Below, one piece after another: positions 1 through 18,388 of a stretch of DNA of 46,395 bases. Source of the stretch: an uncultured Candidatus Poseidoniales archaeon. Its GTDB lineage: Archaea; Thermoplasmatota; Poseidoniia; Poseidoniales; Thalassarchaeaceae. The DNA lies in the NCBI GenBank assembly GCA_902573115.1, contig CACGIM010000001.1:1-46395 (forward strand), in the 5' to 3' direction. How positions within the stretch are numbered: the stretch's first letter is position 1; every line of letters begins with the position of its first letter. Made by a program: the position numbers and the translations under genes. Below the pieces are notes generated by a model. The model was not told where the DNA came from. It made no database searches and saw only the letters and a program-made list of their open reading frames with translations.

Positions 1-131
1 CATCATCTAATGTCTCTCCAGTTGTTAGTATTGTCATGTAAGTTGTAAGGGCATTATGCTATTAATATTTGAGGGAAATCAAAGGGGCGGTGAATTGTAC
101 TCGGGGGCATCATATTCCCTAGAGTATTACG
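1..131. other. Intergenic spacer at window edge
   Basis: No coding region is visible here. It lies downstream of the minus-strand membrane-protein gene that ends at 132. Its right half (about 91-131) holds one copy of the GGCATCAT-type intergenic element described separately. Confidence 0.5.
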
Positions 132-133
132 TC
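91..133 (+). repeat. GGCATCAT-family intergenic element, copy 1
   Basis: Positions 97-121 match 14811-14835 at about 23 of 25 bases: a GTACTC, a G-run, then GGCATCAT and TTCCCTA. The copy sits directly after the stop codon of the gene at 132-1592 and ends in a TTACGTCA sequence. Similar TACGTCA or TACGTGA sequences occur beside the copies at 5.8 and 14.8 kb. Function is unknown; a terminator or protein-binding site is possible. Confidence 0.5.
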
Positions 134-1592: not shown

Positions 1593-1674
1593 GTATTACG
1601 ATGGAGGGGGCGTTATTTACTGATTCGTCATGCACCCTAAAAATCCTTCAAGGCTGGCGCCCCCTCATAGTACC

Positions 1675-1872
1675 ATGTCGGCGGAAGAAGATAGTTGGTT
1701 CAGTAAAGTCGGGCGAACTGGTCTCGGAATGATCATTGGAACGCTTCTCATATATGTCCCCGCAATAATAGGCGGTTATTTGGTCGGAGGTGTTGGATAT
1801 TTTTCAGGGGCCGTTTTGGGGTTGGTCATTGCCATTAAGCTCATGCGGAAAGGTATCGAAGTACACGTGTAG
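1675..1872 (+). CDS. Small two-helix membrane protein
   Basis: A 65-residue protein with an acidic N-terminus (MSAEEDSWF) and two glycine-rich membrane helices joined by a short GGVG turn, ending in a basic tail. The frame is open 15 codons further upstream, but the first of those codons lie next to the start of the divergent neighbour. The ATG at 1675 gives a typical small membrane protein and is preferred. The family is not recognised. Confidence 0.6.
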   Translation: MSAEEDSWFSKVGRTGLGMIIGTLLIYVPAIIGGYLVGGVGYFSGAVLGLVIAIKLMRKGIEVHV

Positions 1873-1955
1873 CTCCATCATTGCGTATTCTCCATGGTGG
1901 GACCCTAGATTTACTAATACCTTTGGGATTAACTAATTATCTAAATTATGCCCCA

Positions 1956-2618
1956 TTATTCTGGACCGCGGATGCTTCTAATTGCACCCATCACGCTCAT
2001 CAGCTTATTTGGAACTGGGGCCAAATATAACCTACCTGTTCCGCCGATTATGTTCACGAAGCCCTCTCCCCCTGCTACTTTCGAGAGCATGCCCTTGCCA
2101 AGTAGCTTGGTCTCGAAATTTAGAGACGCATCCCTAGCTACCGCAAAATTGCCATCCACAGTGATTACGTCGTTTACCATGTCAACTAATTGTACAGGCC
2201 CTTGAGAATGGATCACAACTCTTCCACTCCCTTTCACTGAAGTCTGGAAAATTCCTTCTCCTCCAGCAAGCATGGCCATCCCCTTATTCCGGAAGACTCC
2301 AACTTCGATAGAGAAATCTGAACAAATGTAGGCCCCTTGATCGATAACCATTTCGCCATCCAATTCAATGATACTATACTCTCCGAAGGTAGGAGGCCCA
2401 AAGAAAACATCACCTGTTCCCGTGTATATTGGTCTAAAGACGTCTTCTCCCGAGACCATTGACTTCAGGAATCCGCCAACACTCGGAGCCTTCGTCGTCA
2501 TCTCGATATTACCATGCATGTAGTGCAAGGCACCCGACTCAGAACGAATACTGTCCCCATTCAGAGTCACCTTGACCATTTTTAGCCCTTCATTATCCAC
2601 TACCTCAATTTCTGCCAC
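1956..2618 (-). CDS. AIM24 / TIGR00266-family protein
   Basis: A 220-residue protein resembling the AIM24 (DUF124) family, whose members form a double beta-roll related to tryptophan RNA-binding attenuation proteins. Family signs are the opening GDSIRSESGAL, the internal GGEGIF and GGEGFVN strand turns, and the regular glycine-rich beta repeats throughout. Length matches the usual 210-260 residues. The molecular role is not settled in prokaryotes; the mitochondrial member organises inner-membrane complexes. The ATG at 2618 is 23-28 bp downstream of a TTAATT box inside a tandemly duplicated promoter segment, which fits a leaderless transcript. Confidence 0.85.
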   Translation of the reverse strand: MAEIEVVDNEGLKMVKVTLNGDSIRSESGALHYMHGNIEMTTKAPSVGGFLKSMVSGEDVFRPIYTGTGDVFFGPPTFGEYSIIELDGEMVIDQGAYICSDFSIEVGVFRNKGMAMLAGGEGIFQTSVKGSGRVVIHSQGPVQLVDMVNDVITVDGNFAVARDASLNFETKLLGKGMLSKVAGGEGFVNIIGGTGRLYLAPVPNKLMSVMGAIRSIRGPE

Positions 2619-2636
2619 ATTCCGTCGAATACCGGC

Positions 2637-2676
2637 GCATAATTAAGACTAATCTTGCATAATTAAGACTAATCTT
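2637..2676 (-). promoter_or_regulatory. Tandemly duplicated 20-bp promoter segment
   Basis: Two perfect tandem copies of a 20-bp unit occupy 2637-2656 and 2657-2676. Each unit contains AATTAA, read as TTAATT toward the AIM24-family gene. The proximal TTAATT lies 23-28 bp before the ATG, where an archaeal TATA box sits for a leaderless messenger. The distal copy lies 20 bp further out, close to two helical turns. The duplication is seen directly; the promoter role is inferred. Confidence 0.55.
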
Positions 2677-2831
2677 GCTTGTAACAAATGGGCCCTTAGA
2701 TTATGCGGGAGGCATCTATGATACGTTCTATCTAGAACGGGTTATACCCATACCTTTAGTTTACACATAAGTATAGTGGGGGGTCCTGTCTTCATTATTG
2801 CAGCACAACAGATAGGATGGTCATTGGCAGT

Positions 2832-3056
2832 CTACCAGCATTCATCGTCCTGATCATCATGACAATGGTGTCTATCGGATTCAGCATGTTCTGCCGTATT
2901 GTTCTCTTCATGCTGATGATGATAATCTTCATCGCCATGGTGATGAAGGCCGGGCTCATCGTCGTGATGGTCTGGATGATTATCTCTATCAACACATCCA
3001 GCAAGAGCGGATGTCAGCATTAGCAATACAATAATCATTGGTTTTAGTTGACTCAT
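2832..3056 (-). CDS. Histidine-rich metal-binding lipoprotein (small)
   Basis: A 74-residue protein with a signal peptide and a lipobox (LAGC, cysteine at residue 21), so it should be lipid-anchored outside the membrane. The mature part of about 54 residues has 13 histidines in clusters (HHH, HHQH, HHCH), many Asp and Glu, and two more cysteines near the end. This composition suggests binding of zinc, nickel or copper at the cell surface. No characterised family was recognised. The opposite strand has a methionine-rich open frame that is only the shadow of the His codons. Confidence 0.7.
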   Translation of the reverse strand: MSQLKPMIIVLLMLTSALAGCVDRDNHPDHHDDEPGLHHHGDEDYHHQHEENNTAEHAESDRHHCHDDQDDECW

Positions 3057-3120
3057 ATCCTTTAGTCAATATTCGATTTTTTAGTATTTCTTACACAGCA
3101 TCTACTTGGGTGCCCCTTAT

Positions 3121-3188
3121 TGACGCCCGCATCATAATGGGTAGGGTAGCTGACGCATACATCATTAAGCGGCCCCCATAATTACGTC
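3121..3188 (+). repeat. Two direct repeats upstream of a small membrane-protein gene
   Basis: Two 18-bp copies of a TGACGC..(G/A)CATCAT sequence lie at 3121-3138 and 3151-3168 and match at about 14 of 18 positions. A GGGTAGGGTA stretch separates them, and a TTACGTC sits just before the start codon at 3190. They belong to the CATCAT-type intergenic family found across the first 16 kb. Their position suggests a promoter or operator, but this is untested. Confidence 0.4.
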
Positions 3189-3189
3189 C

Positions 3190-3399
3190 ATGGACTTAAC
3201 GACACTTGATTACATTAGGATTTTGATTGGCGTGGCTATACTCCTGTATGTGGCAAATTGCTCGGTCAATCAGAAAGTATGGATTCGTAAGACGTTTTCA
3301 TGGGGGGCGAGAGAGGAGTATCCCAAGATTTTCCAGATGAACATTATTGGGGGATCATTGATTGGATCATTTTTGGTTGCAAGTCCTTTCTTGTTCTGA
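3190..3399 (+). CDS. Small two-helix membrane protein
   Basis: A 69-residue protein with two hydrophobic helices, about residues 8-25 and 50-68. They flank a basic-aromatic cytoplasmic loop (QKVWIRKTFSWGAREEYPK). It begins at an ATG with no close upstream alternative. It has its own spacer on both sides, so it is probably transcribed alone. No family recognised. Confidence 0.55.
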   Translation: MDLTTLDYIRILIGVAILLYVANCSVNQKVWIRKTFSWGAREEYPKIFQMNIIGGSLIGSFLVASPFLF

Positions 3400-3513
3400 C
3401 ATCTTCCCTACCCTCTGACTAGCCCATGACTCAATGGAATCTCAGTGGGTAGGATTATTGACGTCTGCATAAGCTAGGGACAAAATAATAAATGAAATTT
3501 CAGTGGGAAATTC

Positions 3514-3795
3514 ATGTATTGCCGAGTCAATCAAATCAAGTACGACGCCTCAAGGAAAGACGAAGTCATTGAACTCTTGGAAAGCCAACGTGAGACCATG
3601 ATGGGGCTTACTGGCATCCAATCAGTTTACACAATCGAGATAGCCCCTGGAGAGCTTACAAGCATTGCAGTATATGACACAAAGGAAAATTTTGATGCTG
3701 CCACTCCCGAGGTAGGAAAGATCATGGGTGGTTTTGCTGCTTTCTTCACTGCTCCTCCTGTTGGAAATGAAGGACCAACCATCTTCAATTTCTGA
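3514..3795 (+). CDS. ABM-like small ferredoxin-fold protein, paralogue 1
   Basis: A 93-residue protein resembling antibiotic-biosynthesis-monooxygenase (ABM)-like dimeric alpha-beta barrel proteins. It has an N-terminal strand (MYCRVNQIKYD), a helix ending in a conserved GIQSVYTIE strand, an S(I)AVYDTKENFDAA segment, and a C-terminal helix followed by PP and a last strand. The protein at 17047-17334 has the same length and landmarks, so the two are paralogues. ABM folds include oxygenases, haem-degrading enzymes and stress-response proteins. No catalytic residues can be assigned here. Confidence 0.7.
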   Translation: MYCRVNQIKYDASRKDEVIELLESQRETMMGLTGIQSVYTIEIAPGELTSIAVYDTKENFDAATPEVGKIMGGFAAFFTAPPVGNEGPTIFNF

Positions 3796-3860
3796 GCTAA
3801 GGTTTCAATGGGTAGGGAGGATTATGCCGGAGAAATATCCTTGTGTACTTCATCCTTTGA

Positions 3861-4223
3861 TCAAGCCTCTACGTGGAAGAGCTTGTTGTAAATTGACCAT
3901 CTGTCGCCTTCTTTGACTAGGGACAAAGAGTCCAAGAAAGATATCCCGAGATACTTGTCTCTGACCTTCGCTGTTGCCGTGTCGCCGTTTACCTCGCAGG
4001 ACAGAATTTCAAACTCAACTGTCCCGGGCTCCTGGGCTGAAACAAAACCTGCGAAATCAGATGTTGAAAGCTGTAGGAAATCCCCATTGAGATATCCCAC
4101 GACCTTCGCATTCTCGTGGAATGCCTCTGTGACCATGTCGCCACTCGACTTCTCCATACTTTCAATGTACATTTCTATTACTTGGTTTACTGCATCTTCT
4201 GCGGTCATATAATTCACATTCAT
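3861..4223 (-). CDS. NTF2-like (SnoaL / lumazine-binding type) protein
   Basis: A 120-residue protein with the NTF2-like cone fold signature. It has an N-terminal helix containing AVNQVIEMYIESMEK, an FHENAKVVGYLNGDFLQL strand pair, and paired strands with VEFEILSCEVNGDTATAKV. It ends in the DSLSLVKEGDRWSIYNKLF strand typical of the putative lumazine-binding (DUF4440/Lumazine_bd_2-like) subgroup. Members are ligand-binding or small-molecule-processing proteins, and the exact role cannot be read. An alternative start is the internal ATG at 4208, five codons in. Confidence 0.75.
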   Translation of the reverse strand: MNVNYMTAEDAVNQVIEMYIESMEKSSGDMVTEAFHENAKVVGYLNGDFLQLSTSDFAGFVSAQEPGTVEFEILSCEVNGDTATAKVRDKYLGISFLDSLSLVKEGDRWSIYNKLFHVEA

Positions 4224-4315
4224 TAATTCCGGATAATCCTTTTCCCGGCATTACTCTCGATTAGTATTCGGTCTAATGATGAAGAATGCGCAATGAAGGC
4301 TACCGTTAAAATCGG

Positions 4316-4621
4316 TCATTCCCACCAAGGCGACTCTGCTTCTTCACTCCGCTCGGTCGCATCTTTCTCACCTTTTATGGGCATGGGGATGGCTAAATTA
4401 TCGCGTTCTTCTTTTTCACGCTTTGACTGTTCGATGTTTGCGGCAATGGCTCTGCCCAATTCGCCGAACGTAGATTCTACGACAACGTAATACGTCACCC
4501 ATGCCATTGGTCCGCACACAACCAGGAATATTGTATAATCAACTACGTCGTTTTGAATGAGTACGAAGAGGAACAAAAGTATGATCCAATCTAAGACTAT
4601 TGTTATCTTCAAAATCCCCAT
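4316..4621 (-). CDS. Small membrane protein with charged tail
   Basis: A 101-residue protein with two hydrophobic helices (about residues 5-22 and 29-48) and a long, charged, probably helical cytoplasmic tail (IEQSKREKEERDN and beyond). It ends in PWWE. The ATG at 4621 opens the hydrophobic segment directly. The family is not recognised. Confidence 0.5.
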   Translation of the reverse strand: MGILKITIVLDWIILLFLFVLIQNDVVDYTIFLVVCGPMAWVTYYVVVESTFGELGRAIAANIEQSKREKEERDNLAIPMPIKGEKDATERSEEAESPWWE

Positions 4622-4693
4622 GAACTACTTATCCCCAAATAGCACTAAAGTTTCTTAACACCTAACCTTTTTCTTTTGTTAAAAGCGAATTAA

Positions 4694-4727
4694 GCCTCAT
4701 AATCGCTAGGGATTATTATGTCCGTAA
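4694..4727. repeat. Imperfect palindrome of the ATTATG family
   Basis: A CATAATC arm and an ATTATTATG arm flank a central GCTAGGG in the spacer between two same-strand membrane-protein genes. The arrangement resembles the clearer palindrome at 6165-6194. No gene is visible in the 4622-4749 spacer. Confidence 0.35.
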
Positions 4728-4749
4728 CACCTACTGATAATTCCGGTAG

Positions 4750-5691
4750 TTAGGCCTGTTTGCCATCCCACCATCTTTCAGAATTGGTTTCATTGACACG
4801 TGCCACTCTCCATTCCCCCCATATCATTCCTCGGGCAATTGATAGGACAAAGAGTCCAAACATCAAGAATGGTATCGAGAAAGCAATCATAAATAGTGAG
4901 ATTGGGTCATCTGACATGTCTTGCTCTATTCGATAAATGAAGTAAGGGATCAATGTGAAAGTCAATCCGAAAAGGAACAAGAGCGTCGCAACAAAAACAT
5001 CTACTATTCTACCATCCTGCTTCGCACCCGAGTTCTCCTTCTTTGACCTCTCCAGAAAATCGGGCCCCCACGGCTTAGTCTTCTTCAGGCTGAGCTCAAG
5101 GATATCGCACAGCTTTCTGATTTTCTCGGGAACATCTGCGTCCCAATCGGGCTCCCAAGGTTGGGGCTCCTCTAATTTTGGTAGCTTGTGAATCACTGAA
5201 TCGGATATTATTGCAAAAAAATCATCGGTGGTATCTGGACCATCCGGATTGCGGAACTTCCTGGTCCAGTGGTGGACTGCAGAGACTTGACCCAACTCGA
5301 GATGAACTACCTCTTCGAGCCCGTTCAGGGTTTCTTTGTAGTGGAACTCCAAGCCAGCCTCCTTGCTCACCACCATCCTTGTCAAATACATACTTGATTT
5401 CCCAGACAGCCCGGAAAGGAAACCGCCAAATTCAGATAACCTGCGATTGCTCCATGGAACTTCGAACTTCAGGTCGATCTTCTCCGGGTCCAATCGTGAC
5501 TCGGAGGGCCACAGAATATCACTCCTCGAAGACCGACGATAACTCATCCAAAATACTAGAAATAACAAAAGTAATGTTAGAGCGCATAAATCGTTAGAGA
5601 AACCATCGACATTTCGCCTAAGCCAGAATTCAATCCATGCCCATGCGAAGACCACCAGTAGAGCAGATGCCAAGTCTTTGCGATCCACCAT
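4750..5691 (-). CDS. Four-helix membrane protein of unknown function
   Basis: A 313-residue protein. The first two hydrophobic helices (about 7-24 and 33-49) are followed by a soluble domain of about 170 residues with alternating beta strands (GLEFHYKETLNGLEEVVHL and similar). Two more helices (about 228-252 and 262-287) and a short polar tail follow. The soluble part is probably cytoplasmic. It has no recognised family or catalytic motif. It shares the two-pairs-of-helices layout with the protein at 132-1592 but no convincing sequence. Confidence 0.65.
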   Translation of the reverse strand: MVDRKDLASALLVVFAWAWIEFWLRRNVDGFSNDLCALTLLLLFLVFWMSYRRSSRSDILWPSESRLDPEKIDLKFEVPWSNRRLSEFGGFLSGLSGKSSMYLTRMVVSKEAGLEFHYKETLNGLEEVVHLELGQVSAVHHWTRKFRNPDGPDTTDDFFAIISDSVIHKLPKLEEPQPWEPDWDADVPEKIRKLCDILELSLKKTKPWGPDFLERSKKENSGAKQDGRIVDVFVATLLFLFGLTFTLIPYFIYRIEQDMSDDPISLFMIAFSIPFLMFGLFVLSIARGMIWGEWRVARVNETNSERWWDGKQA

Positions 5692-5746
5692 TGGGGTCGA
5701 TGGAGGGAGCCTTCTTTACTCATTCGTCATGAACAATAGGGAAGGT

Positions 5747-5826
5747 GATGCCCCCGAGTAACACGGTTGCTTTGTGACGTATCCATAACCCTGGGATACG
5801 TGAATTCCACTGGCATCATAGAGGGG
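5747..5826. repeat. Composite intergenic element, copy D
   Basis: Two segments recur at 14.7-14.8 kb. Positions 5747-5781, read on the minus strand, match 14791-14825 at 31 of 35 bases. Positions 5793-5826 match 14688-14721 at 30 of 34 bases and contain ACGTGAATTC and GGCATCATAGAGGGG. The two segments are 11 bp apart here and 69 bp apart in the other copy, with different relative order. The spacer (5692-5842) holds no gene. Confidence 0.6.
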
Positions 5827-5842
5827 ACCCCTATCTGATGAC

Positions 5843-6160
5843 ATGTCTGAACCTCAGGTCGACAATCCACAATACTCACGACGAGGGTGGAAAATAGCAG
5901 GACTAGGACTACTCATCACATTCAACTATGCTTTTCTTTTTCCTCCCGTAGGTGATCTATTCTTTGACGACGGTTTTTCCTATTTGTATTGGTCTATTTT
6001 CACGGTTTCAATCGGAACGCCGATTGCATTTGTTGGATTGTTATTGTCAATCAGGGACAAATGGAAAATTGGTAAAAATATCGTGATTGAAATTATCTTT
6101 TTGATCGCCCTTTTTGGAAATGCATTTTTCTGGGCAACACTCGGTACCATCGGAGTTTGA
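5843..6160 (+). CDS. Small three-helix membrane protein
   Basis: A 105-residue protein with a polar N-terminus and three hydrophobic helices at about 17-35, 47-68 and 77-100. The segments between them are rich in aromatic residues. It stands alone between two repeat elements: the composite element upstream and a palindrome directly after its stop codon. No family recognised. Confidence 0.55.
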   Translation: MSEPQVDNPQYSRRGWKIAGLGLLITFNYAFLFPPVGDLFFDDGFSYLYWSIFTVSIGTPIAFVGLLLSIRDKWKIGKNIVIEIIFLIALFGNAFFWATLGTIGV

Positions 6161-6164
6161 ATTA

Positions 6165-6194
6165 GGCATCATATTCCCTAGGGAAGATTATGCC
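6165..6194. repeat. 30-bp near-perfect palindrome
   Basis: This sequence reads GGCATCAT...CCCTAGGG...ATTATGCC and pairs with its own reverse complement at 13 of 15 positions. It begins 4 bp after the stop codon of the gene at 5843-6160 and precedes the end of the convergent gene at 6221. A bidirectional terminator or a dimeric protein site would both fit. It is the clearest member of the GGCATCAT family in the window. Confidence 0.6.
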
Positions 6195-6220
6195 CCTGCC
6201 CTAATTAATTACTTCAGAAA

Positions 6221-6778
6221 TTATGATTTTTCATCTGCTTCTTGAAAATCTCCGATTTTTTCCAGTCCCGGAGGAAAGGGAACAGTGTCGCCATATTGTG
6301 TCTCAGATCCGCCTTCGATTTTTGACTCAGGGCGGTTTTTGGGTTTAGGTGGTCTTTTCTCAAAATCCTGAATAGGAGGATTTTTCCCCGTCTTTTTTTT
6401 ACCATTATTGCTTGGCTTTTTACGTTGAGTTTGGCTGATGGAGTCATTTCGAATCCTCTCTATGGTTCTTATGTCCCATGACTCTCTGAATCTCTGAAAG
6501 TAAATGGCAATTCCACCAATGAGGAAAATAATCGACTGAATTAAATTTATGAAAAACGCTCTTTCATACTCTTGGCACAAATCTTCCAGCAGTGGAGTTG
6601 AATTGCACGTTTCAAATGCTTCATATTTATCCCCAATATCATATCCCAAAGTTATTGAAAATGAAATAAAAACAAAGGCTATGATTAGGATTGAGTTATT
6701 GTATAGTGTTCTTAGATGAACAAAATGCTGTCGAAGTTCGTTGTCCACCATAATCAGCCCGACATAGTTGTCCGACAT
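6221..6778 (-). CDS. Two-helix membrane protein with basic tail
   Basis: A 185-residue protein with two membrane helices (about residues 29-47 and 76-93) separated by a loop with two cysteines (TCNSTPLLEDLC), which could form a disulphide outside the cell. A long cytoplasmic tail follows, first rich in Lys and Pro (KKPSNNGKKKTGK), then acidic. A second possible start is the methionine at residue 10. The family is not recognised. It lies immediately outside the left inverted repeat of the restriction-modification cassette. Confidence 0.55.
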   Translation of the reverse strand: MSDNYVGLIMVDNELRQHFVHLRTLYNNSILIIAFVFISFSITLGYDIGDKYEAFETCNSTPLLEDLCQEYERAFFINLIQSIIFLIGGIAIYFQRFRESWDIRTIERIRNDSISQTQRKKPSNNGKKKTGKNPPIQDFEKRPPKPKNRPESKIEGGSETQYGDTVPFPPGLEKIGDFQEADEKS

Positions 6779-6817
6779 TAACCCAATGAGTCCGATTGGC
6801 GCATGATGCCCTTTGAG

Positions 6818-6847
6818 AACCCTATGAGTCGTATAATGGTCAGAGGG
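6818..6847 (-). repeat. Left inverted repeat of the R-M cassette
   Basis: Read on the minus strand it begins CCCTCTGACCAT and ends CATAGGGTT. It matches the right copy at 9722-9751 in 26 of 30 positions. It lies 35 bp beyond the stop codon of the endonuclease gene. It is also the left arm of a local hairpin with 6857-6878, so the spacer at 6779-6881 is highly structured. Confidence 0.6.
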
Positions 6848-6881
6848 TACCCATTGAGTCGTATACGGATCATAGGGGGTT

Positions 6882-8261
6882 CTATATTCGACTCATGCTT
6901 CTTTTCCGATTTAGAATAGATTGGACGAAATCTTGGTTTAGCCAGAAGCACTGTCTCGTAATGTCACCCCATGGACCTATGTCTCTAACAGTGTTGTTCT
7001 TTGCCTTGGGCCTCAGATGAAATATTCTGGTTTCCTTTGCCTTTGGGATTTCATTCGCACCATTCTCAATTCTCAGTATGTCCCGATGCATTCGCCATTC
7101 TTCTTCCATTATTCTCCACTCACTATCTGATGGTTGCCATAGAACTGGTTTTCCAAAACGAACTTCAGTCCATGGAACCTTCCTAGATTCTCGGATAGTT
7201 GGCACGAAAAGTATGGCAGAAACCTCTTCAGACATGAAGTGGTCTTCGAATGTTTTAGTTTCAGTAAGTTCAGCGATGTCAATAGCCGGAAAGGAAGTTG
7301 CTTCCCAAGTCCTTTGAGTGCTAGGATTGATCGGCACGGTCTTCAAAATTATCCCAATATCATCTAATTCAGCGATTCTTCTTCCTCCCTTTCCGCCCGT
7401 CAGCCACTGTCTAACTATTCTGTATGCGTAATCCTTGGACCTTGGAAAAGGAAGGCCCAATTCCGCCATTACTTCCGCGGTAGTTCGCCCTTCTATCTTC
7501 TCTAGTTTTGATCGGCATGCTTCCAATGGGTCGTCTTCTTCGAAAATTCTCAGTGACCCGATTCTATTCGTGTAACATTCCCAAATTCCATTCATATAAG
7601 CTACTTTTAGTGAAAATGCCCTCCTCATTGCGGGCTCAGAACCGTGATGATATGAGACAAGATCCCGCTTTCCTCCGGATCCTTTTCGTGCAGCAGATAG
7701 TGTTTTGAAAAAGCGTTCAGATAGCCTATGAGCAGATCCTTCGGACACCATTGATTGGCATAGCGACCAATCTTCTTCCAAAATAGGATCTATGAATGAG
7801 TCGGGCTCCCATATTGATGCTCCCTTGACGATGCATTTCTCCCTCTCTCCTTTAGGTTCGTGTGTAACGAATACATTCAGGATTCTATTCATTTTTGTAC
7901 GAGCATGTGAAGATGGCCATACTTCTCTTGGTAGCTGGTTGTAATTTATCATGCCAATTACTTGTCTTTCCTTAACTCGCCATTTTCCTGATCCTTTCTT
8001 CAACGGGACAATTTTCAATTCTAGACCCGGCATTTCAATTCCGGGCCCAGACGCATCCGGAAAATCCGCCTCTGAACGACTATCTAGTCCCAATCCAAAA
8101 GCCGCCTGAATCGCATTACCTACACCACCCTTTCCAGATTCGATATTGGATTCATCAATCCGTATCTCTAACTCATGCAGAATCTGGCCAATTGTCTTAC
8201 CCCTCATGCTCTTCCCATGCTGCTCGAGAGAAGATATCGAATCTGGGTCTGGTGGCCTCAC
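6882..8261 (-). CDS. Sau3AI/MutH-like type II restriction endonuclease
   Basis: A 459-residue protein predicted to cut unmethylated DNA, probably at GATC as Sau3AI does. The N-terminal catalytic domain shows the conserved GKTIGQIL helix (about 21-28), then a catalytic-type D66 (with D69 nearby), E81 and K83 in the LELK motif, followed by the family's KERQVIGMINY strand (97-107). Length agrees with Sau3AI (about 490), which has a second MutH-like domain used for regulation; the remaining 330 residues would be that part. The start is a GTG at 8261, needed to keep the upstream helix. It is divergent from its methyltransferase. Confidence 0.85.
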   Translation of the reverse strand: MRPPDPDSISSLEQHGKSMRGKTIGQILHELEIRIDESNIESGKGGVGNAIQAAFGLGLDSRSEADFPDASGPGIEMPGLELKIVPLKKGSGKWRVKERQVIGMINYNQLPREVWPSSHARTKMNRILNVFVTHEPKGEREKCIVKGASIWEPDSFIDPILEEDWSLCQSMVSEGSAHRLSERFFKTLSAARKGSGGKRDLVSYHHGSEPAMRRAFSLKVAYMNGIWECYTNRIGSLRIFEEDDPLEACRSKLEKIEGRTTAEVMAELGLPFPRSKDYAYRIVRQWLTGGKGGRRIAELDDIGIILKTVPINPSTQRTWEATSFPAIDIAELTETKTFEDHFMSEEVSAILFVPTIRESRKVPWTEVRFGKPVLWQPSDSEWRIMEEEWRMHRDILRIENGANEIPKAKETRIFHLRPKAKNNTVRDIGPWGDITRQCFWLNQDFVQSILNRKRSMSRI

Positions 8262-8340
8262 AGGGGACCGTCTAGACCATACAATTCAATATTTTACCAT
8301 GATCGAGATCTTCAATAACCGTGACTTATGAGATATCATA
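8262..8340. promoter_or_regulatory. Divergent R-M promoter region with paired GATC sites
   Basis: This 79-bp spacer separates the start codons of endonuclease and methyltransferase. Two GATC sites lie at 8301-8304 and 8307-8310. A TAAAATATT sequence on the minus strand (about 8287-8296) is 26-35 bp before the endonuclease GTG, where an archaeal TATA box belongs. The GATC pair therefore sits just upstream of the endonuclease promoter and inside the methyltransferase promoter zone. Methylation-dependent control is inferred. Confidence 0.5.
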
Positions 8341-9729
8341 GTGAGCATCAGAGTTGTTGAACTATTTGCGGGTGTTGGAGGCTTCCGCATAGGTTTCGAA
8401 GGTGCTCCGGGAACAAGTAGCAACAATAGATTCAGGATTGTATGGGCCAATCAATGGGAACCGAGCACCAAGAAACAACACGCAGCAGAAGTATATTCAG
8501 CTCGCTGGGGCCTATCCCCAGATAATGAGAGGCCGACATTATTCACTAGTTCATCCGGCCAAAACGATGTTTTTGTGAACGAAGACATCTCCACCATAGA
8601 AGCTTCAGAGATACCAGAACACGATCTCCTGTGTGGAGGTTTCCCTTGCCAAGATTATTCTGTTGCAAAGACTCTTGACAAGGCAAAGGGACTCTCTGGG
8701 AAGAAAGGTGTACTTTGGTGGGAAATACATCGGATAGCAGAATATCATCGCCCATCGTACCTACTCTTGGAAAATGTGGACCGACTTCTCAAGTCACCTA
8801 AGGGCCAGAGAGGTCGAGACTTTGCGGTAATGCTCGCATCACTTGAGGATCTAAATTATGTCGTAGAATGGAGAATGGTAGACGCATCATCTTACGGTTT
8901 TCCTCAAAGAAGGAAGCGAGTTTTCATCCTGGCACATGGACAAGGGACTCCAGGCCATGAAGCCCTCACTAAGGGTGGCTCGCCAAAGTATTGGATGGAG
9001 GAGGATGGAGCACTGGCACGCTCACTACCTATCCTCCCAAACAACGACGGCGAACCCACTTGGTTCTGTTTGCGGGAGAATAAAAATGATGATCTTGCAG
9101 ATGTTTCTGATAATTTCAACACCGGAAAAGGTGGTAAAGACCCAGGAAGCCCATTCCTAGGAACAGGTGTGATGGTAAATGGTAAAGTTTGGACGTCTAA
9201 AACAACACCCAGAGATGTAAAATCTACGCTTACACTTGGCGATATTCTCCAAGATTCTGAGAGAGTTGCGGATGAGTTCATTCTAACTCCGGAGAGCCTG
9301 AACCATGAGAGAGGATGGATATATCTGAAAGGAGCAAAACGTGAATTACGGACTGGAACTGATGGCTTCACATATCGCTACTCAGAGGGGCCCATTACAT
9401 TCCCAGATGCTCTGGACAGGGCATCGAGAACGATCATTACTGGCGAAGGTGGCAAGGGAGCCTCTCGATTCAAGCATGTAGTAAAGTTCCGTCCTACGAA
9501 AGAACAAGTAGAGAGAATGGGCTTGAGTTCAGAGGGTGCATCACTTGTTCGAGAAAAAATCGGTCTAAAACTCACAGAATGGGTACGGAGGTTGACCCCG
9601 ATAGAGCTTGAGCGACTAAATGGTTTTCCAGATAACCATACCGAAGGAGTGACTGATGGAAAACGGGCATTCTTCATGGGTAATGCTTTGGTATGCGGTA
9701 TAGTCAGTCGTATAGCTGAATCCCTCTGA
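8341..9729 (+). CDS. DNA (cytosine-5) methyltransferase of the R-M pair
   Basis: A 462-residue enzyme that transfers a methyl group from S-adenosylmethionine to cytosine C5, protecting the sites of the divergent endonuclease. All landmark motifs are present in order: motif I FAGVGG (9-14), motif IV GGFPCQ with nucleophile C103, motif VI ENV (about 145), motif VIII QRR (about 185), and the C-terminal motifs IX/X (LTPIELERLNGFPDN, then MGNAL). A target-recognition region of about 200 residues lies between VIII and IX. Sau3AI's own partner is also a C5 enzyme. The start is a GTG. The stop codon lies inside the right inverted repeat. Confidence 0.93.
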   Translation: MSIRVVELFAGVGGFRIGFEGAPGTSSNNRFRIVWANQWEPSTKKQHAAEVYSARWGLSPDNERPTLFTSSSGQNDVFVNEDISTIEASEIPEHDLLCGGFPCQDYSVAKTLDKAKGLSGKKGVLWWEIHRIAEYHRPSYLLLENVDRLLKSPKGQRGRDFAVMLASLEDLNYVVEWRMVDASSYGFPQRRKRVFILAHGQGTPGHEALTKGGSPKYWMEEDGALARSLPILPNNDGEPTWFCLRENKNDDLADVSDNFNTGKGGKDPGSPFLGTGVMVNGKVWTSKTTPRDVKSTLTLGDILQDSERVADEFILTPESLNHERGWIYLKGAKRELRTGTDGFTYRYSEGPITFPDALDRASRTIITGEGGKGASRFKHVVKFRPTKEQVERMGLSSEGASLVREKIGLKLTEWVRRLTPIELERLNGFPDNHTEGVTDGKRAFFMGNALVCGIVSRIAESL

Positions 9730-9751
9730 CCATCATAGGCCTCACAGGGTT
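9722..9751 (+). repeat. Right inverted repeat of the R-M cassette
   Basis: It starts CCCTCTGACCAT and ends CACAGGGTT, matching the left copy in inverse orientation at 26 of 30 positions. Its first eight bases are the last codons and stop of the methyltransferase gene. The same type of box, CTCTGA, recurs at about 9763, 9864 and 9905 in the following spacer. Confidence 0.6.
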
Positions 9752-9754
9752 TGG

Positions 9755-9863
9755 GCAAGTACCCCTCTGACTATACTATGTTCTCAATGGGTTGCTAGTC
9801 TGGACCCACTGACCACAATTCGAATCCCAGATACCGACTGACTGCTATACCTCTCACACGCTA
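9755..9863 (+). repeat. 109-bp direct repeat, copy 1 (before kinase gene)
   Basis: It matches 12473-12581 over 109 bp without gaps at about 91 identical positions (83%). Well-conserved blocks are ACCCCTCTGAC, GTTCTCAATGGGTTGC, CAGATACCGACTGACTGC and CTCACACGCTA. It fills much of the 295-bp spacer between the methyltransferase and the kinase gene; that spacer contains no other gene. A TATA-like ATAAATCAT lies at about 9981, some 40 bp before the kinase start. Confidence 0.65.
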
Positions 9864-10024
9864 CCCTCTGAAACGTATAGGAGCTACAGGGGCAAGGGGG
9901 TATTCCTCTGAGAACCGCATAGGAAAATCGCTATCATTAATTCTCAAGACGTGACGGCATAATTGTTGCTTATCTGTCACATAAATCATTTTGATGGATG
10001 CCCATTACGTAGGATTGATGCTCT

Positions 10025-12400
10025 ATGAATTATGATATTGGCTCGAAAAATGGAAATTATGTCCATACTAAGAAGCTCGCGCCTCTCTTTGCAATTTTAT
10101 GTTCCTTAGTTTTGGCCGCTTCGGCTTCCTCAGCCTCAGTGGGAATAACAAGTGCCTCCAATTCTACAAATCAGAGCAGCAACTGGTCATCATCCTTCGA
10201 TGAATACCAAGCATATGACGGAGATTATGGGACAACTGCAAAGATTCGCGTGAGTAATTGCTGGGTTGATCAGGAAGATCAGGAATGCACAGAAGGCGCC
10301 TATCACGAGGAGGAATTCCGCTTCACCACCGAACTAGACGAGCCCTTCGCGGTAGGAATTAGAATTAACATTTCATCAGAAAATGCCTCGATAAATGCAC
10401 TCACCGGGTTTTTTCTCCTTGACTACGATGCTGATCAGTTTGAGTTAATGTTAGACATCAGCGGCACCACAACTGACGAAATACTCTATCATTTCATGAC
10501 ATATCCCCGGCACAAATCCGAAGAAGGACAATTGACATTAGCAATTTTTTCCCAGCATACCAATTCAGCGAATAATCATACTGTATTGCTCGTGGAGATA
10601 AGTGAAATCGACTTCGTATTGGATTCTGATACCGATGGTTGGTTTAATTTCCAGGATGCCTTTCCCTATGATCCAAATGAGTGGATGGACAGCGACGGTG
10701 ACGGAGTCGGTGACAACTCCGACGACGACATTGACGGCGACGGCATCACGAACGACAAGGACGACTTCCCCCTCAACAGCAGCGAGTGGGCGGACAGCGA
10801 CGGTGATGGCACTGGCGACAATTCTGACACCGACATGGATGGGGACGGCGTTGGTGACAACGCTGATTCAAGCCAGATTGAAGAGTTCGTTGAGGATGGT
10901 CCCGAGGCTCCTGAGGTGGTGGAAGAGCGATTGTGGGAGTCTTTACAGGAATGGTTCGTAATCCTCCTCATATCTGCCGTTGTTCTTGTAGTGTCGATTG
11001 GAGTTTTAAGACCAAGGAGCCAGAGCCCGGCCGAGGACCGAGTCAAAAAGAAGGCCGAAAGGAGGAAAGTATCTGAGGAGCGACATAGGAAGCAGGTCGC
11101 TGAGATAACAAGGCTAGAAGTGGAGATGAGGCTCAACGACTTGAAGGCCCGAGAGAGCTCGATGACCAAGGAAGATTACATTCTAGCCAGGATCAAAATC
11201 AAGGCGATTCCGTTCGACTTCTCAGTTATCGGGCGGTCTGGAGGGGTTTTCGATGACTTGCAACAGATTGACGGTATAGACGAGTCTCTAGAGAGGAGGC
11301 TCAATTCCATGGGAATAACGAACCTGGGGCAACTGTCTAGGATGGACGATTATATCTCCGACGAAGTTAACAATACAATCGACTACATGCCAGGAAGAGT
11401 AAGGAGGCAACTCTGGGCGGAGCAGGCACAGATCTTAGTCGAGGATGTTCCTCAGGTACCTTTCTTCGAGTCTGATTTTCCAATCACTGGCAGCAACGAG
11501 ATGGAAATCCCCCCTGAAACCGATCGTCAAAGTATCCCCAAGGAGAGGGGGCAGTCGGAAATCGTGCAGAAGGAGGGTGGAATGATCGATTCTAGGAGGT
11601 TCGTCAAGGTCCGCAAGCTACGTGCGGAAGGGGGAATGGCCGAGGTTTACCAAGCGAAGGATAAGAAAACGGGAGATTTCGTAATATGGAAGCAAGCCGC
11701 CCCCAGTAGAACTCTTTCTGCGAAGGAGGCCAACAGGGTGCTTGAAAACGAAGTAGAGGTCCTTGAGCGTCTGGACCACCACAGAATACCGAAATGCATC
11801 GACTCCGGCTTCCTTTTGAACGAAGAGGGGGATCTTGTTTTGGCCCTCATCATGGAACACATCGATGGAGGGAGTCTCGACGATGAGATGAAGACCTTTG
11901 TGAGAAGGGGCATAGCCCAAAGTCTGGATTACGTGATTAAGACCATGGTTCAATGCTGCGAGGCCCTTGAGTACATGGCAGATTTAGATCCCCCCCTATA
12001 CCACAGAGACATCAAGCCGCACAACATCATGGCTCATCCTGAAAGGGGAGCGGTCCTAATCGACTTCGGTCTTGCCAAGGAGGTTGCCGCTGGCTCCGGA
12101 GTGTCCCTTTCCGCAGGCGCACATACAGCTGGCTGGTCACCCCCGGAGAGGGAAAGGGCAGAAACCGGGACATTCACGGATGTTTACAGCCTCGGGCAGA
12201 TACTTTGGCACATGCTGACCAATGAGCCAGCTGGGATATACTCTGAGGAGAGGCGAGTCGAGGCTATTACCAAGGCAGGCCACCCAGAGTGGTTGGCAAG
12301 ACTGGTCAACCAAGCAACAGTCCCCGACGACCCGAAAAGGAGGACTCAAACGGTTTTTGAATTTAGGATTAGGCTTGAGAACGAGGGCAGGCTCCCTTAG
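10025..12400 (+). CDS. Transmembrane Hanks-type Ser/Thr kinase with Ca-repeat ectodomain
   Basis: A 791-residue predicted receptor kinase. In order it has a signal peptide (about 15-38), an ectodomain, and acidic thrombospondin-3-like repeats (DSDGDG, DIDGDGI, DMDGDGV; about 200-285) that should bind calcium. One membrane helix (about 309-330) and a charged coiled coil (about 340-385) follow. Next is a helix-hairpin-helix module with IDGID..LERRL and later GRVRRQLW (about 409-475), then a kinase domain (about 526-790). Kinase landmarks are EGGMAEVY in place of a full glycine loop, a lysine near 555, HRD with D662 plus N667, and DFG with D680. The first loop glycine is replaced by alanine. It is flanked by 109-bp direct repeats. 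Confidence 0.88.
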   Translation: MNYDIGSKNGNYVHTKKLAPLFAILCSLVLAASASSASVGITSASNSTNQSSNWSSSFDEYQAYDGDYGTTAKIRVSNCWVDQEDQECTEGAYHEEEFRFTTELDEPFAVGIRINISSENASINALTGFFLLDYDADQFELMLDISGTTTDEILYHFMTYPRHKSEEGQLTLAIFSQHTNSANNHTVLLVEISEIDFVLDSDTDGWFNFQDAFPYDPNEWMDSDGDGVGDNSDDDIDGDGITNDKDDFPLNSSEWADSDGDGTGDNSDTDMDGDGVGDNADSSQIEEFVEDGPEAPEVVEERLWESLQEWFVILLISAVVLVVSIGVLRPRSQSPAEDRVKKKAERRKVSEERHRKQVAEITRLEVEMRLNDLKARESSMTKEDYILARIKIKAIPFDFSVIGRSGGVFDDLQQIDGIDESLERRLNSMGITNLGQLSRMDDYISDEVNNTIDYMPGRVRRQLWAEQAQILVEDVPQVPFFESDFPITGSNEMEIPPETDRQSIPKERGQSEIVQKEGGMIDSRRFVKVRKLRAEGGMAEVYQAKDKKTGDFVIWKQAAPSRTLSAKEANRVLENEVEVLERLDHHRIPKCIDSGFLLNEEGDLVLALIMEHIDGGSLDDEMKTFVRRGIAQSLDYVIKTMVQCCEALEYMADLDPPLYHRDIKPHNIMAHPERGAVLIDFGLAKEVAAGSGVSLSAGAHTAGWSPPERERAETGTFTDVYSLGQILWHMLTNEPAGIYSEERRVEAITKAGHPEWLARLVNQATVPDDPKRRTQTVFEFRIRLENEGRLP

Positions 12401-12472
12401 AGTCTGACTATATCAGGGTTTGATTGGTCCAATAGAGGACCCAATGACTCGAATGGTGATCAAAGGGACTAG

Positions 12473-12581
12473 GCAAGCACCCCTCTGACAACACTCTGTT
12501 CTCAATGGGTTGCATGGGAAAACCCTCTGACCTCAATGCGAGTCACAGATACCGACTGACTGCGATACCGCTCACACGCTA
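12473..12581 (+). repeat. 109-bp direct repeat, copy 2 (after kinase gene)
   Basis: Same orientation and length as 9755-9863, about 83% identical. The sequence directly before it, 12403-12423 (TCTGAC..ATCAGGGTTTG), also resembles the start of the right R-M inverted repeat. The spacers after the methyltransferase and after the kinase are therefore homologous as a whole, with about 50 extra bases in this one. No gene is visible in 12401-12653 apart from an unlikely extension of the next frame. Confidence 0.65.
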
Positions 12582-12653
12582 GGGAATGTGATGCCCCCTG
12601 ACGTTGCACTACGGACCAAGGTAAGTTCAAACCAAGTACCCCCCTTTCCTAGG

Positions 12654-12917
12654 ATGCCGATGCTCAATCCGATAAGGGCTATGGAACCGCCAGAGGATGA
12701 CGATCCCGACAATAATGGACATTCCCTTTGGTGGAGCGACGAACAACTTGAGCAACTTGAAGCATACTCTAGAAAAGACGGTTATTTCTTCAATAACCGT
12801 GATGCGGTTGGTTGGATTATTTTCTTGAGCCTCGTACTGGGTATTATTGCATTGATGCTCCTGTATTTTTGGTCGTTGCCCTCCTCCAAACCTCATAATT
12901 TTGATGCGTTCCCGTAA
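12654..12917 (+). CDS. Small single-helix membrane protein
   Basis: An 87-residue protein with an acidic N-terminus (EPPEDDDPDNNG), a WWSDEQLEQLEAYSRKDGYF amphipathic segment and one strong membrane helix near the C-terminus. The frame is open back to 12588, but the upstream part begins in a GTGATGCCCC intergenic motif. Starts at 12654 or 12681 (MEPPEDDD) are more likely. No family is recognised. Confidence 0.5.
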   Translation: MPMLNPIRAMEPPEDDDPDNNGHSLWWSDEQLEQLEAYSRKDGYFFNNRDAVGWIIFLSLVLGIIALMLLYFWSLPSSKPHNFDAFP

Positions 12918-12926
12918 GTATCCCTT

Positions 12927-12998
12927 ATGGCAGTCCTGGCTAAAATCATCTATGCATGGAGATTCGAGCCAAACCACCCTGAGGATGATGAAGAATAA
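12927..12998 (+). CDS. Possible 23-residue microprotein
   Basis: A short frame starts 9 bp after the stop of the preceding membrane protein and encodes MAVLAKIIYAWRFEPNHPED plus a short acidic end. The basic-aromatic start and acidic end look protein-like, and the spacing suits a second cistron. At this size chance cannot be excluded. Confidence 0.22.
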   Translation: MAVLAKIIYAWRFEPNHPEDDEE

Positions 12999-13033
12999 CA
13001 TTGAGCCTGTATTAGAGGGGGGACCTGTACGAG

Positions 13034-13175
13034 GGCATCATTGAGGGTCCCGCCAGGGGACCCTTGCTGTTGTGTCCCGAATGCTTGGGGTGCTAGCCCA
13101 TACCCTCAATGATGGAAGCATCACAGAGTTACCCTTGCACCGCGAGGCATCATAATCTCTACCCTAACTGATGCC
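13034..13175. repeat. GGCATCAT-family elements in the 13-kb spacer
   Basis: Two members lie here. One at about 13034 has GGGCATCATTGAGGGTCCC followed by a CCAGGGGACCC complement, which can form a hairpin. The other at 13146-13175 begins GGCATCA and ends TGATGCC, a perfect 7-bp inverted pair around CTCTACCCTAA. Apart from the short frame at 12927, the spacer 12918-13214 holds no gene. Confidence 0.45.
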
Positions 13176-13214
13176 ACCATCAGCAAGGGATACTGGATTA
13201 CAACCATGTCCTGG

Positions 13215-13451
13215 TTACTCTATGGAGAAGATTGTTGCTATATTCGACATCATCCAGGATGAGGCGGCGAATAATTGCAACCAATCCCCTGTAGTGCTGA
13301 TGCCATATGCGAACACACTGAGAATCCAGCATAGGCTGGCGACCGTCTGCCCAAGCCAGCCGACACTCATGATTTTCTTCATCCGAGTCTGAGGCGTTCC
13401 AGAAATGCCCCCCATGTCGCTCAGATCTGAATTGGCACTTCCACTCAACAT
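13215..13451 (-). CDS. Small membrane protein coupled to FAD oxidoreductase
   Basis: A 78-residue protein with a polar N-terminus (about 1-28) and two hydrophobic helices: WLGQTVASLCWILSVFAYGI, then WLQLFAASSWMMSNIATIF. The ATG at 13451 overlaps the stop of the upstream oxidoreductase gene in ATGTTGA, a typical translational-coupling junction. This supports the start and suggests the two proteins are made together, perhaps as a membrane partner for electron transfer. The family is not recognised. The longer upstream frames in this region ignore the coupling. Confidence 0.55.
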   Translation of the reverse strand: MLSGSANSDLSDMGGISGTPQTRMKKIMSVGWLGQTVASLCWILSVFAYGISTTGDWLQLFAASSWMMSNIATIFSIE

Positions 13452-14611
13452 GAGACGCACTCCTGCCCACAGCAAGACAGATCATCCAGATACATCCCCC
13501 AGTCTCTGTACGCTTGTACAAAGTCATCAGTCTGTATGCCCATAGAAGACGCTATGCTCTGGGCCACGACAGCAAAGCGCTGCCTGAATTTGAAGATGAA
13601 GCAGAAATCGTGATTGTCGTGCCGGACAGAGGGGCCACAGAGGTAGATGCCAGGGACTTTTGTCGACTCATCGCGCTCGTTAAGAAGTGGAAATCCATCT
13701 TCCCTCTTCTCGAAAAGGTGCGACACCAAGGCATGGCTGCCATCAAATCCACCAGCTAAGAGTGGTTGTGTTTTGGATCTGAATACCTGGCCATCTTCGG
13801 ATTTCAGCTCATATTCCCCATCTACTAGTTCAACCGAAGTAACGGCGTTTTCTGGGAATAAGGTGACCTTCTCTTCGAATCTTGCTTCCCTCATCCGCTC
13901 GTAGGTGAAGGTTGACAGTGAAGCGCTTGGGTCCGAAGCATCTAGGCCCCAAGGATCGTCTTTGTCGAACATTATGACCTTCTTGCCGCGCTTGGATAGG
14001 TGGTAAGCGGCATCGGTTCCGCTTTCGTAACCGCCAATGACCAGGAAGTCGTCACCATCCAAATCAGCATAATTTGCTAGGGTTGCTGTGTGTCGGCACA
14101 GCTCACTTCCTGTGAATCCCCCCAACCTGGGATAGAGGAACTCTCCGGCAGCCCAAATCACGTTTTTCGAATAGATGGTCCAATCATTTGTTTCAACCCT
14201 AAACACCCCCTCCTCGTTTGTGATTTGCACGACTTCGGCATTCTCTCTGACAGGCAATTCGAAGAATTCAGCGAGATCCTGGAGATGTTTGGCGTACTCA
14301 CTTCCATTGGGGTGCTCGATTCTCATGTTGTATGCGGGGGATACACCAACCGCGATGGAATTCAGATCCAGCATACCTATCGAGTTACTCGGGAACGACG
14401 GCGTGATGAATCGGGTCTCATCCGGCCATGAAGCGAAGGAAGAGCCGACTACCCCCCTATCGATGATGACGAAGTTACCTACACCTGAATGAGCGAGAGC
14501 GATTCCAGACCCTATGCCGGCTGCACCGGCGCCGATGATAATGGCATCAAACACATCTTGGGTGTCCTCTGATGATTCCAAGACCATGCTCACCTCAGAT
14601 TCTCTTTCCAT
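13445..14611 (-). CDS. FAD/NAD(P)-dependent oxidoreductase, Cys-rich C-terminus
   Basis: A 388-residue flavoprotein of the two-dinucleotide-fold class (flavin monooxygenase / thioredoxin-reductase-like). It has an FAD Rossmann motif GAGAAGIGSG near residue 27, a second NAD(P)-type fold at VIGGYESGTDAAYHL in mid-protein, and a late IYLCGPSVRHD segment that resembles the FAD-closing motif. The C-terminus ends SCCGQECVSC, five-residue-spaced cysteines suited to redox exchange or metal binding. The frame opens with TTG at 14623, but the ATG at 14611 follows a GGAAAGG Shine-Dalgarno-like sequence and is preferred. Substrate unknown. Confidence 0.82.
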   Translation of the reverse strand: MERESEVSMVLESSEDTQDVFDAIIIGAGAAGIGSGIALAHSGVGNFVIIDRGVVGSSFASWPDETRFITPSFPSNSIGMLDLNSIAVGVSPAYNMRIEHPNGSEYAKHLQDLAEFFELPVRENAEVVQITNEEGVFRVETNDWTIYSKNVIWAAGEFLYPRLGGFTGSELCRHTATLANYADLDGDDFLVIGGYESGTDAAYHLSKRGKKVIMFDKDDPWGLDASDPSASLSTFTYERMREARFEEKVTLFPENAVTSVELVDGEYELKSEDGQVFRSKTQPLLAGGFDGSHALVSHLFEKREDGFPLLNERDESTKVPGIYLCGPSVRHDNHDFCFIFKFRQRFAVVAQSIASSMGIQTDDFVQAYRDWGMYLDDLSCCGQECVSC

Positions 14612-14687
14612 ACCTTTCCGCAAATTAATAGCAATTTAAAATAAACTAATAATCCATGAAGTTCAAATTAATACATTGACAACTCTA

Positions 14688-14825
14688 GGGTAACGTGAAT
14701 TCTACAGGCATCATAGAGGGGCCATTGGGTCACCCCTCAATGACAGATCCCATCATTATGGGTCTAGTAGGTAGAACCCATGATTACGCATACGTGACAA
14801 AGTAACCGTGGTACTCAGGGGCATC
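14688..14825. repeat. Composite intergenic element, copy E
   Basis: The left part (14688-14721) matches 5793-5826 at 30 of 34 bases. The right part (14791-14825) matches the reverse complement of 5747-5781 at 31 of 35 and continues into GGCATCATCTTCCCTA, matching the element at the window's left edge. The middle (about 14745-14780) contains another CATCATTATGGG. The spacer 14624-14860 has no visible gene. Confidence 0.6.
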
Positions 14826-14860
14826 ATCTTCCCTACCCTTTGACTCGATTTGCTGGGACT

Positions 14861-15343
14861 TTAATTCCACCACTCCTCTCCTTCCGGCGTTGTCTCCTTG
14901 AATACTTCTTCGACAAAGGAAGAGGCTTTGAAAGGCCCCTCCTTATCCAGATTGGTTTTCTCTGTTCGGAGAATTTCTTCCCCGTCAAAGTAGCGTATCT
15001 CTAGCCAGTCATCCTCATCGTCCTGGGAGCTTGTGAATGTTAAGTCTAGGTTCCTCCCCATCTTCCCAGTATCTTCAAGGTATATTTTCGCGCTTTCCCT
15101 AATACTCTCGGTCTGTTTCCAGAAATCCATCATCGTCCTGATGTGTAGCGTTACCTCTTTGCCGTCGATCTGGGCTCGGAGTGATTTTCCCTCTTCGTCG
15201 AAAATATCGTTTTGGCTCGTCTTCACCATCCAAATCAAACCACTCAGAAACTCTCCAAGCTCCCCCGACCTAATTTCCTTCAATTTTCCAAATCCTATGA
15301 ATAAGACAATGAATAGGATAAATCCAATCTCTCCGGAATTCAT
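14861..15343 (-). CDS. Membrane-anchored protein of unknown function
   Basis: A 160-residue protein with one N-terminal membrane helix (GEIGFILFIVLFIGFG) and a soluble part of about 140 residues. The soluble part has alternating charged strands and helices (KEVTLHIRTMMDFW, LDLTFTSSQDDEDDWLEIRYFDGEEI) and ends in EEWWN. It looks like a membrane-tethered cytoplasmic domain. No family was recognised. Confidence 0.55.
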   Translation of the reverse strand: MNSGEIGFILFIVLFIGFGKLKEIRSGELGEFLSGLIWMVKTSQNDIFDEEGKSLRAQIDGKEVTLHIRTMMDFWKQTESIRESAKIYLEDTGKMGRNLDLTFTSSQDDEDDWLEIRYFDGEEILRTEKTNLDKEGPFKASSFVEEVFKETTPEGEEWWN

Positions 15344-15475
15344 GTCCCTGTCAAAGGCATTAGGTATGTATAGATGTGGAAGTATGAATCAATGGGCTTT
15401 CAGTGGGCCGAATCAGTTCCTAGGGATGATGATGCAGCGTCATCTTCCATTCATTCATGACGTATGTGTAATGAT

Positions 15476-15551
15476 GGGGCCCTCTATTATGCCTACATCA
15501 TAGTGGGTACCCTAAGTGATGCGGGCATCATCAAGGAGCCCTTTATTATGC
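15476..15551 (+). repeat. Direct and palindromic CATCAT/ATTATGC elements
   Basis: Two copies of a G(G/A)GCCCT(C/T)TATTATGC sequence begin at 15476 and 15535. Between them lie a CTACATCATAGTGGGTACCC and a GTGATGCGGGCATCATC segment. The group sits 45 bp before the start of the pentapeptide lipoprotein gene and may hold its promoter. The rest of the spacer 15344-15596 shows no gene. Confidence 0.4.
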
Positions 15552-15596
15552 GATTACTGTAGAGGGTTTATCCCCTTCCCCCATTTACGAAAACCG

Positions 15597-16943: not shown

Positions 16944-17046
16944 AGTATATCATAATCCCTACGGTCTGTCTGTGGTACCACTCAGACGCACCCCTCTCTC
17001 TTGGAGGCTCCAAATATTTGAAATTTGAATTCATTTTCGCGATATT

Positions 17047-17334
17047 ATGTATTACAGGATAACCAAAGCAGAAGTACAAGCGGGCAAGTTTGAGGAAGCA
17101 ATGTCGACAATGGAGTCATTGAGGGACAGCATCGGCAAGATTAACGGTCTTGTAAGTAGCAACCTAGTACGAATAAGCGAAACGGAAATGTTAGGAGTTG
17201 CTGCTTATGAAAGTAAAGAGCATTTAGAAGCGTCACAAAACGAATTCAATGAGCTCATGGTTAACATGATGCCATACATGGCTGGACCCCCCGAGGTATC
17301 CTTTGGGGAAGGAGTATTTTCCTTCAACTCATGA
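17047..17334 (+). CDS. ABM-like small ferredoxin-fold protein, paralogue 2
   Basis: A 95-residue protein with the same landmarks as the one at 3514-3795: the MYYRITKAEV first strand, a GLVSSNLVRISE strand after the first helix, GVAAYESKEHLEA, a hydrophobic helix with MMPYMAGPP, and a final strand FSFNS. Both lack the longer loops of classical monooxygenases. A GATATT sequence lies immediately before the ATG. Probably a dimeric alpha-beta barrel protein; the activity cannot be read. Confidence 0.68.
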   Translation: MYYRITKAEVQAGKFEEAMSTMESLRDSIGKINGLVSSNLVRISETEMLGVAAYESKEHLEASQNEFNELMVNMMPYMAGPPEVSFGEGVFSFNS

Positions 17335-17356
17335 TTGGCCCTATGTGCCTCATGAT

Positions 17357-18372: not shown

Positions 18373-18388
18373 TCCTTCCCCTCGCCAA

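Follow-up and report, generated by a model that had tools for sequence, protein, structure and literature searches.

The window (the whole stretch of 46,395 nucleotides that we analysed, from an uncultured Candidatus Poseidoniales archaeon) contains a divergent restriction-modification pair. The initial annotation had assigned the two genes to a Sau3AI-like system and placed them between inverted copies of a 30-bp sequence. The gene assignment was confirmed by domain and structure matches:

6882-8261, minus strand: Sau3AI/MutH-like restriction endonuclease, 459 aa (PF02976, E 1e-27; PDB 4pxg)
8341-9729, plus strand: C5-cytosine DNA methyltransferase, 462 aa (PF00145, TIGR00675; PADLOC MTase_II)

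As in Sau3AI-type systems, an endonuclease of the MutH/Sau3AI family adjoins a C5 methyltransferase, the arrangement that defines the class. The locus differs from these systems in that the endonuclease shares just ~25-27% identity with annotated Sau3AI-family plasmid enzymes and scores 198.5 bits against the NCBIfam equivalog NF040973, under the cut-off of 300, and in that the pair appears to be embedded in a cassette array. No close match to the endonuclease was found in 319 genomes of the order. It is a singleton in this set, and the restriction pair is thus accessory. The three nearest methyltransferases, from MAGs labelled Planktomarina, Euryarchaeota and Poseidoniales, reach just 60-62% identity, so that none of them identifies a donor. 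The closest (62%) lies in L166, labelled Planktomarina, a bacterium, alongside the two archaeal MAGs; misbinning is possible.

The inverted repeat (6818-6847 and 9722-9751) matches at 26/30 positions when inverted, compared with 11/30 when read directly. The second arm starts at 9722 and overlaps the stop codon of the methyltransferase gene, which ends at 9729, and a transposase is absent between the arms, all as originally described. Overlooked at that stage was that the arms are themselves palindromic in part (18/28 positions in arm 1, 16/28 in arm 2), each being a 28-bp near-palindrome of the general form CCCNNTGA-N12-TCANNGGG, which we call the B unit. B units are dyads of 28 bp (some 29 bp) and occur far above chance, with 4 exact matches of a stricter form in the window against 0.02 expected, and 7 distinct units in the genome against 0 in a reversed control. 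The window has further units at 6850, 9763, 9864, 12440 and 12481, and contigs 4 and 10 of this genome carry others. Among relatives, they are common within the genus and near control level outside it. The features surrounding the restriction pair are:

6820-6847: B unit, arm 1 of the repeat, 28-bp near-palindrome CCCTATGAGTCGTATAATGGTCAGAGGG; just outside the putative restriction cassette
6848-6849: TA core of a site with B half-sites on both sides, TCAGAGGG-TA-CCCATTGA; putative left end of the restriction cassette
6850-6877: B unit, forming the first bases of the putative cassette
9722-9749: B unit U1, arm 2 of the repeat, on the methyltransferase stop codon; first unit of a composite type-B element
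9763-9791: B unit U2 of the composite
9804-9861, plus strand: units U3 and U3b of the composite, with the end CTCACACGC before TA
9862-9863: TA core of a second site with two B half-sites, TCACACGC-TA-CCCTCTGA; putative right end of the restriction cassette
9864-9891: B unit with 2 mismatches, at the start of the next module
10025-12400, plus strand: gene for a protein kinase with thrombospondin type 3 repeats, in a neighbouring module (putative cassette 9864-12579)
12440-12579, plus strand: second composite type-B element, 3' of the kinase gene
12580-12581: TA core of a site with B on the left and A on the right, TCACACGC-TA-GGGAATGTGATGCC

The ~140-bp composite U1-U2-U3-U3b follows both the methyltransferase gene (9722-9861) and the kinase gene (12440-12579) and is found in other genomes; the block 9742-9863 is repeated at 12460-12581 (82%) and on contig 10 (79%). 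The kinase domain of the protein encoded at 10025-12400 resembles anti-phage kinases in PADLOC.

Although no other pair in the window matches as well as the two arms do, a unit in a relative (G018:C13) matches arm 1 equally well, at 24/28 positions. B units also adjoin unrelated genes (a kinase, an acetyltransferase and a pentapeptide protein) and occur in other species. Thus, the arms are members of a genus-wide family of intergenic palindromes, and the proposal that the 30-bp pair is unique to the restriction genes is largely refuted. The proposal of a paired 3'-end signal is not supported, since a terminator-like site is absent at both arms and the NN positions do not pair. An RNA hairpin or terminator was rejected more generally, as the NN positions pair less than in shuffled sequences and there was no Rfam match. 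The inner positions 11-13 of the unit are symmetric, pairing beyond shuffles, and NN positions 4 and 5 are not. Because pairing at position 13 would leave a two-base loop, the unit is more likely a double-stranded dyad site than an RNA stem. Single-stranded DNA folds of the composites, inspected by eye, show no simple attC-like hairpin. Viral carriage was considered and rejected: the type-A core has no viral match, and the type-B core has one, at the end of a 4.2-kb contig from which B units are absent.

Inspection of the sites revealed two interchangeable half-sites flanking a TA, namely B (TCANN-SSS-TA), taken from the 30-bp repeat, and A (GGCATNATNNTCCC-TA). All four arrangements around the TA (A with A, A with B, B with A and B with B) are present in the window. 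A half-sites number 10 in the first 20 kb and 0 in the remaining 26 kb; genomes of the genus contain at most 15 each, and the control 0. They lie at 31 same-strand and 35 opposite-strand gene ends, and this lack of strand bias speaks against a gene 3'-end signal for A sites also. Four further features of this region bear on the argument:

3411-3812: model cassette with a 93-aa gene, TA-CCCTCTGA...TCAATGGG-TA, with inverted B half-sites and TA at both ends
6165-6194: site with A half-sites on both sides, a 30-bp near-palindrome GGCATCATATTCCC-TA-GGGAAGATTATGCC; a junction position in relatives
14687-14835, plus strand: type-A composite, ~150 bp, ending in GGCATCATCTTCCC-TA, with many copies in the genus and its core inverted at 5737-5795
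16960-16961: island edge; 16960-20000 is 99.4% colinear with G026:C1 and the other side is unrelated

Window positions 1-16960 form a hypervariable island. Compared with relatives, 1-17400 splits into blocks of ~0.25-1.5 kb which recur shuffled and in both orientations. Just past the island edge, 18398-20368 contains two genes resembling N6/N4-type DNA methylases, colinear with the nearest relative. Single-gene blocks are 94-98% identical between species whose core DNA is 68-70% identical, and are found in either orientation beside different neighbours; the core yardstick is a single locus, XerA, and therefore thin, though the differences are large. Compared with G010, in which the XerA locus has 68.5% identity, blocks 3824-4304 and 3409-3818 reach 96% and a block of contig 10 reaches 97%. 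For 13216-14684 and G014 the values are 94.5% and 67.7% (XerA locus). Between pairs of relatives, two blocks shared by G010 and G026 are 98.2% and 96.5% identical against a core of 70.0%, and one shared by G012 and G016 is 98.0% identical against 82.9%. Since block identity lies so far above that of the XerA locus, these gene blocks move between species. Nearly all of the genomes compared are incomplete, fragmented assemblies. Contigs of relatives (G018:C13, G022:C28, G012:C10, G005:C69, G035:C2) often end in or near the repeats, as expected of multicopy sites in variable arrays.

The ends of these blocks are enriched in the half-sites. Of 37 distinct intergenic block ends, 19 are no more than 10 bp from a TA with an A or B half-site beside it (null 11.5%, p 3e-9), a value to be read with caution since these junctions were one of the sources of the motifs. 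Taken alone, A accounts for 15/37 ends (p 1e-8) and B for 7/37 (p 0.004), so that B sites are the more weakly supported. TA without half-sites is not singled out (17 of 55 block ends, compared with 20 for AT and 18 for CA), and such a plain dinucleotide count is weak because many ends fall within genes or inside half-sites common to both sequences; significance was reached only when the half-sites were included. At some ends the junction is exactly at TA: relative to the nearest relative, G026, they fall at 3813, 4708 and 16960, and several blocks, read by eye, stop exactly after TA with unrelated sequence beyond. The cassette at 3411-3812 is present in G010:C27 as the same 402 bp, inverted, 96.3% identical, beside other neighbours and with both ends exact, in a species with a core identity of 68.5%. 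In G026, its right flank is joined to an A half-site instead.

Homologous recombination between scattered intergenic repeats could also shuffle genes, the repeats themselves having some other role, such as protein binding. The repeats are multicopy and 75-90% alike, about half of the junctions lie away from TA sites flanked by A or B, and the units resemble double-stranded binding sites, with their symmetric positions 11-13 and asymmetric NN. However, homologous recombination requires longer identity than TA, and at several exact junctions the exchanged flanks of the same block have only the TA in common, for example CATCTTCCC-TA and GGTCAATGGG-TA. This disfavours homologous recombination at these junctions, and we consider it a rather unlikely explanation.

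We interpret these observations to indicate that the repeat is probably part of a site-specific gene-cassette exchange system, in which the restriction pair would be one module and whose sites would be those of neither integrons nor dif modules. Window 1-16960 would then be an array of small modules joined at half-site-TA-half-site, each module consisting either of an intergenic element or of one or two genes. A and B half-sites combine freely on both sides of the TA, which would allow modules to be joined in any order, and in either orientation since TA is its own reverse complement. A site-specific recombinase would cut at the TA. By analogy with the other cassettes, the restriction pair may move as one such module, comprising 6850-9861, with TA at 6848 and 9862, and ending on the right in a composite B element. 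In such a cassette, running from TA 6848 to TA 9862, arm 1 would lie outside and arm 2 inside. Removal of 6850-9863 would leave TCAGAGGG-TA-CCCTCTGA, a perfect palindrome.

The earlier proposal of a minimal mobile cassette moved in trans was therefore right in part. It fits the island and the small gene blocks with such ends that are common to distant species, and the blocks end at TA sites built from the motif first recognized in the repeat. The limits would have to be moved from 6818 and 9751 to TA 6848 and TA 9862, and movement of the restriction pair itself was not observed, neither a second copy nor an empty allele having been found (319 genomes of the order for the endonuclease). It is very improbable that 6818-9751 is instead a self-contained unit whose terminal repeats are the two inverted 30-bp copies. 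Nothing in the window matches either arm better than the other arm does, and the pair they enclose is accessory, but the same B units occur singly and in arrays by unrelated genes, and observed cassettes end exactly at the TA between units, which would put the two arms on different sides of the cassette boundary. Related restriction loci, those of the three nearest methyltransferases, lack the repeats.

The modules might alternatively be MITE-like non-autonomous transposons with half-sites at their ends, inserted into TA targets with TA duplication by a transposase acting in trans, the arrays being formed as one element inserted beside another. TA target choice and duplication are known for IS630/Tc1-mariner elements. 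TA does flank modules on both sides, the cassette at 3411-3812 has the inverted ends CCCTCTGA...TCAATGGG, and repeated elements of ~150 bp exist without genes. Nevertheless, the two ends of one module often differ in half-site (B and B, B and A, or A and A, across the TA), the sequence internal to the ends is not common to the modules, and the junctions coincide with the borders of other modules instead of falling at random TA. We regard this origin as unlikely.

The recombinase of an exchange system could be supplied in trans, and candidates are a tyrosine integrase on contig 10, the host XerA, or a serine recombinase of one relative. No recombinase was consistently linked to the arrays: PF00239 occurs in 1/28 genomes, and PF00589 proteins other than XerA in a few. 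Most genomes of the genus carry XerA-like genes. The contig-10 gene (L012:715-2253; 25714-27252 of the contig, minus strand) encodes a divergent 512-aa tyrosine-recombinase-like protein, with a PF00589 score of 18.5 bits, below the cut-off, and its 3' end overlaps a tRNA-Arg(TCG) gene. GGCATCATATTCCCTA is found 15 bp before its start, and array elements adjoin the gene, including type-A and A half-site sequence. G018:C15 (L162) has a homologue (86%) in the corresponding position, also beside array elements and preceded by a B-like unit; the contig-10 protein has no viral match. Within an array contig of G027 (G027:C5, L117:18954-19775) is a serine recombinase, the sole PF00239 match in the genus (28 genomes), which is thus rejected as a general enzyme. 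An enzyme of this class would fit a crossover of 2 bp at TA. The G027 gene adjoins a gene resembling, by eye, a GIY-YIG nuclease with a lysine-rich tail. Two other genes were observed. In G021:C9 (L161:1132-2547) a tyrosine-recombinase gene unlike that of contig 10 overlaps a tRNA-Asn gene, with A and B sites absent nearby, and an array contig of G007 (G007:C11, L064:6649-7071) contains a fragment resembling the C-terminal half of XerA, perhaps a carried-off or decayed gene.

Comparison with known systems revealed partial likenesses. The palindromes resemble BIME/REP and MITE-type repeats in being multicopy, intergenic and arranged in mosaic composites, but unlike those repeats they coincide here with the borders of gene blocks that moved horizontally. 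Integron gene cassettes and CALINs have been described in Archaea too (PMC9668308), and the main text of that paper makes no mention of Thermoplasmata or Poseidoniales. The likeness to integrons and CALINs lies in the small accessory gene cassettes, the short specific sites, the transfer across species and the arrays without a consistently adjoining recombinase (PMC9668308). However, where attC has its junction in a GTTRRRY/RYYYAAC box, the junction here follows the TA of SSS-TA-SSS, with TA between G/C triplets and no GTT. The fixed polarity of integron sites also has no counterpart, given the near-equal strand distribution of A sites and cassettes in both orientations.

In dif modules, known with their pdif sites from Acinetobacter plasmids (e.g. 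PMC6449649, PMC13141974), genes likewise lie between ~28-bp dyad sites in inverted order and without an enzyme of their own, and mobilization in trans by the host Xer is thought to occur (PMC6449649, PMC13141974). The B units are such 28-bp dyad-symmetric sites, and the genus possesses XerA-like genes. Dif modules differ in that crossover is central in the 28-bp site, whereas several junctions here lie at TA between units and none is listed at the centres, and in that here the half-sites are of two types. The array-site sequence also differs from the dif sequence. Thus, the array sites match neither integron nor dif-module sites. Such arrays are not described in the titles and abstracts of the Poseidoniales papers found, a set of incomplete coverage.

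This genus of marine archaea may possess a cassette-exchange system of its own, with a palindromic TA and interchangeable half-sites that would permit any order and orientation, and which is neither integron nor dif module; we advance this broader reading tentatively. If correct, abundant uncultured marine archaea would trade single genes, defence genes included, across a 30% difference in core DNA, and an orientation-free cassette system would join integrons and dif modules. The site is defined, SSS-TA-SSS with A or B half-sites, and so can be searched for and tested.
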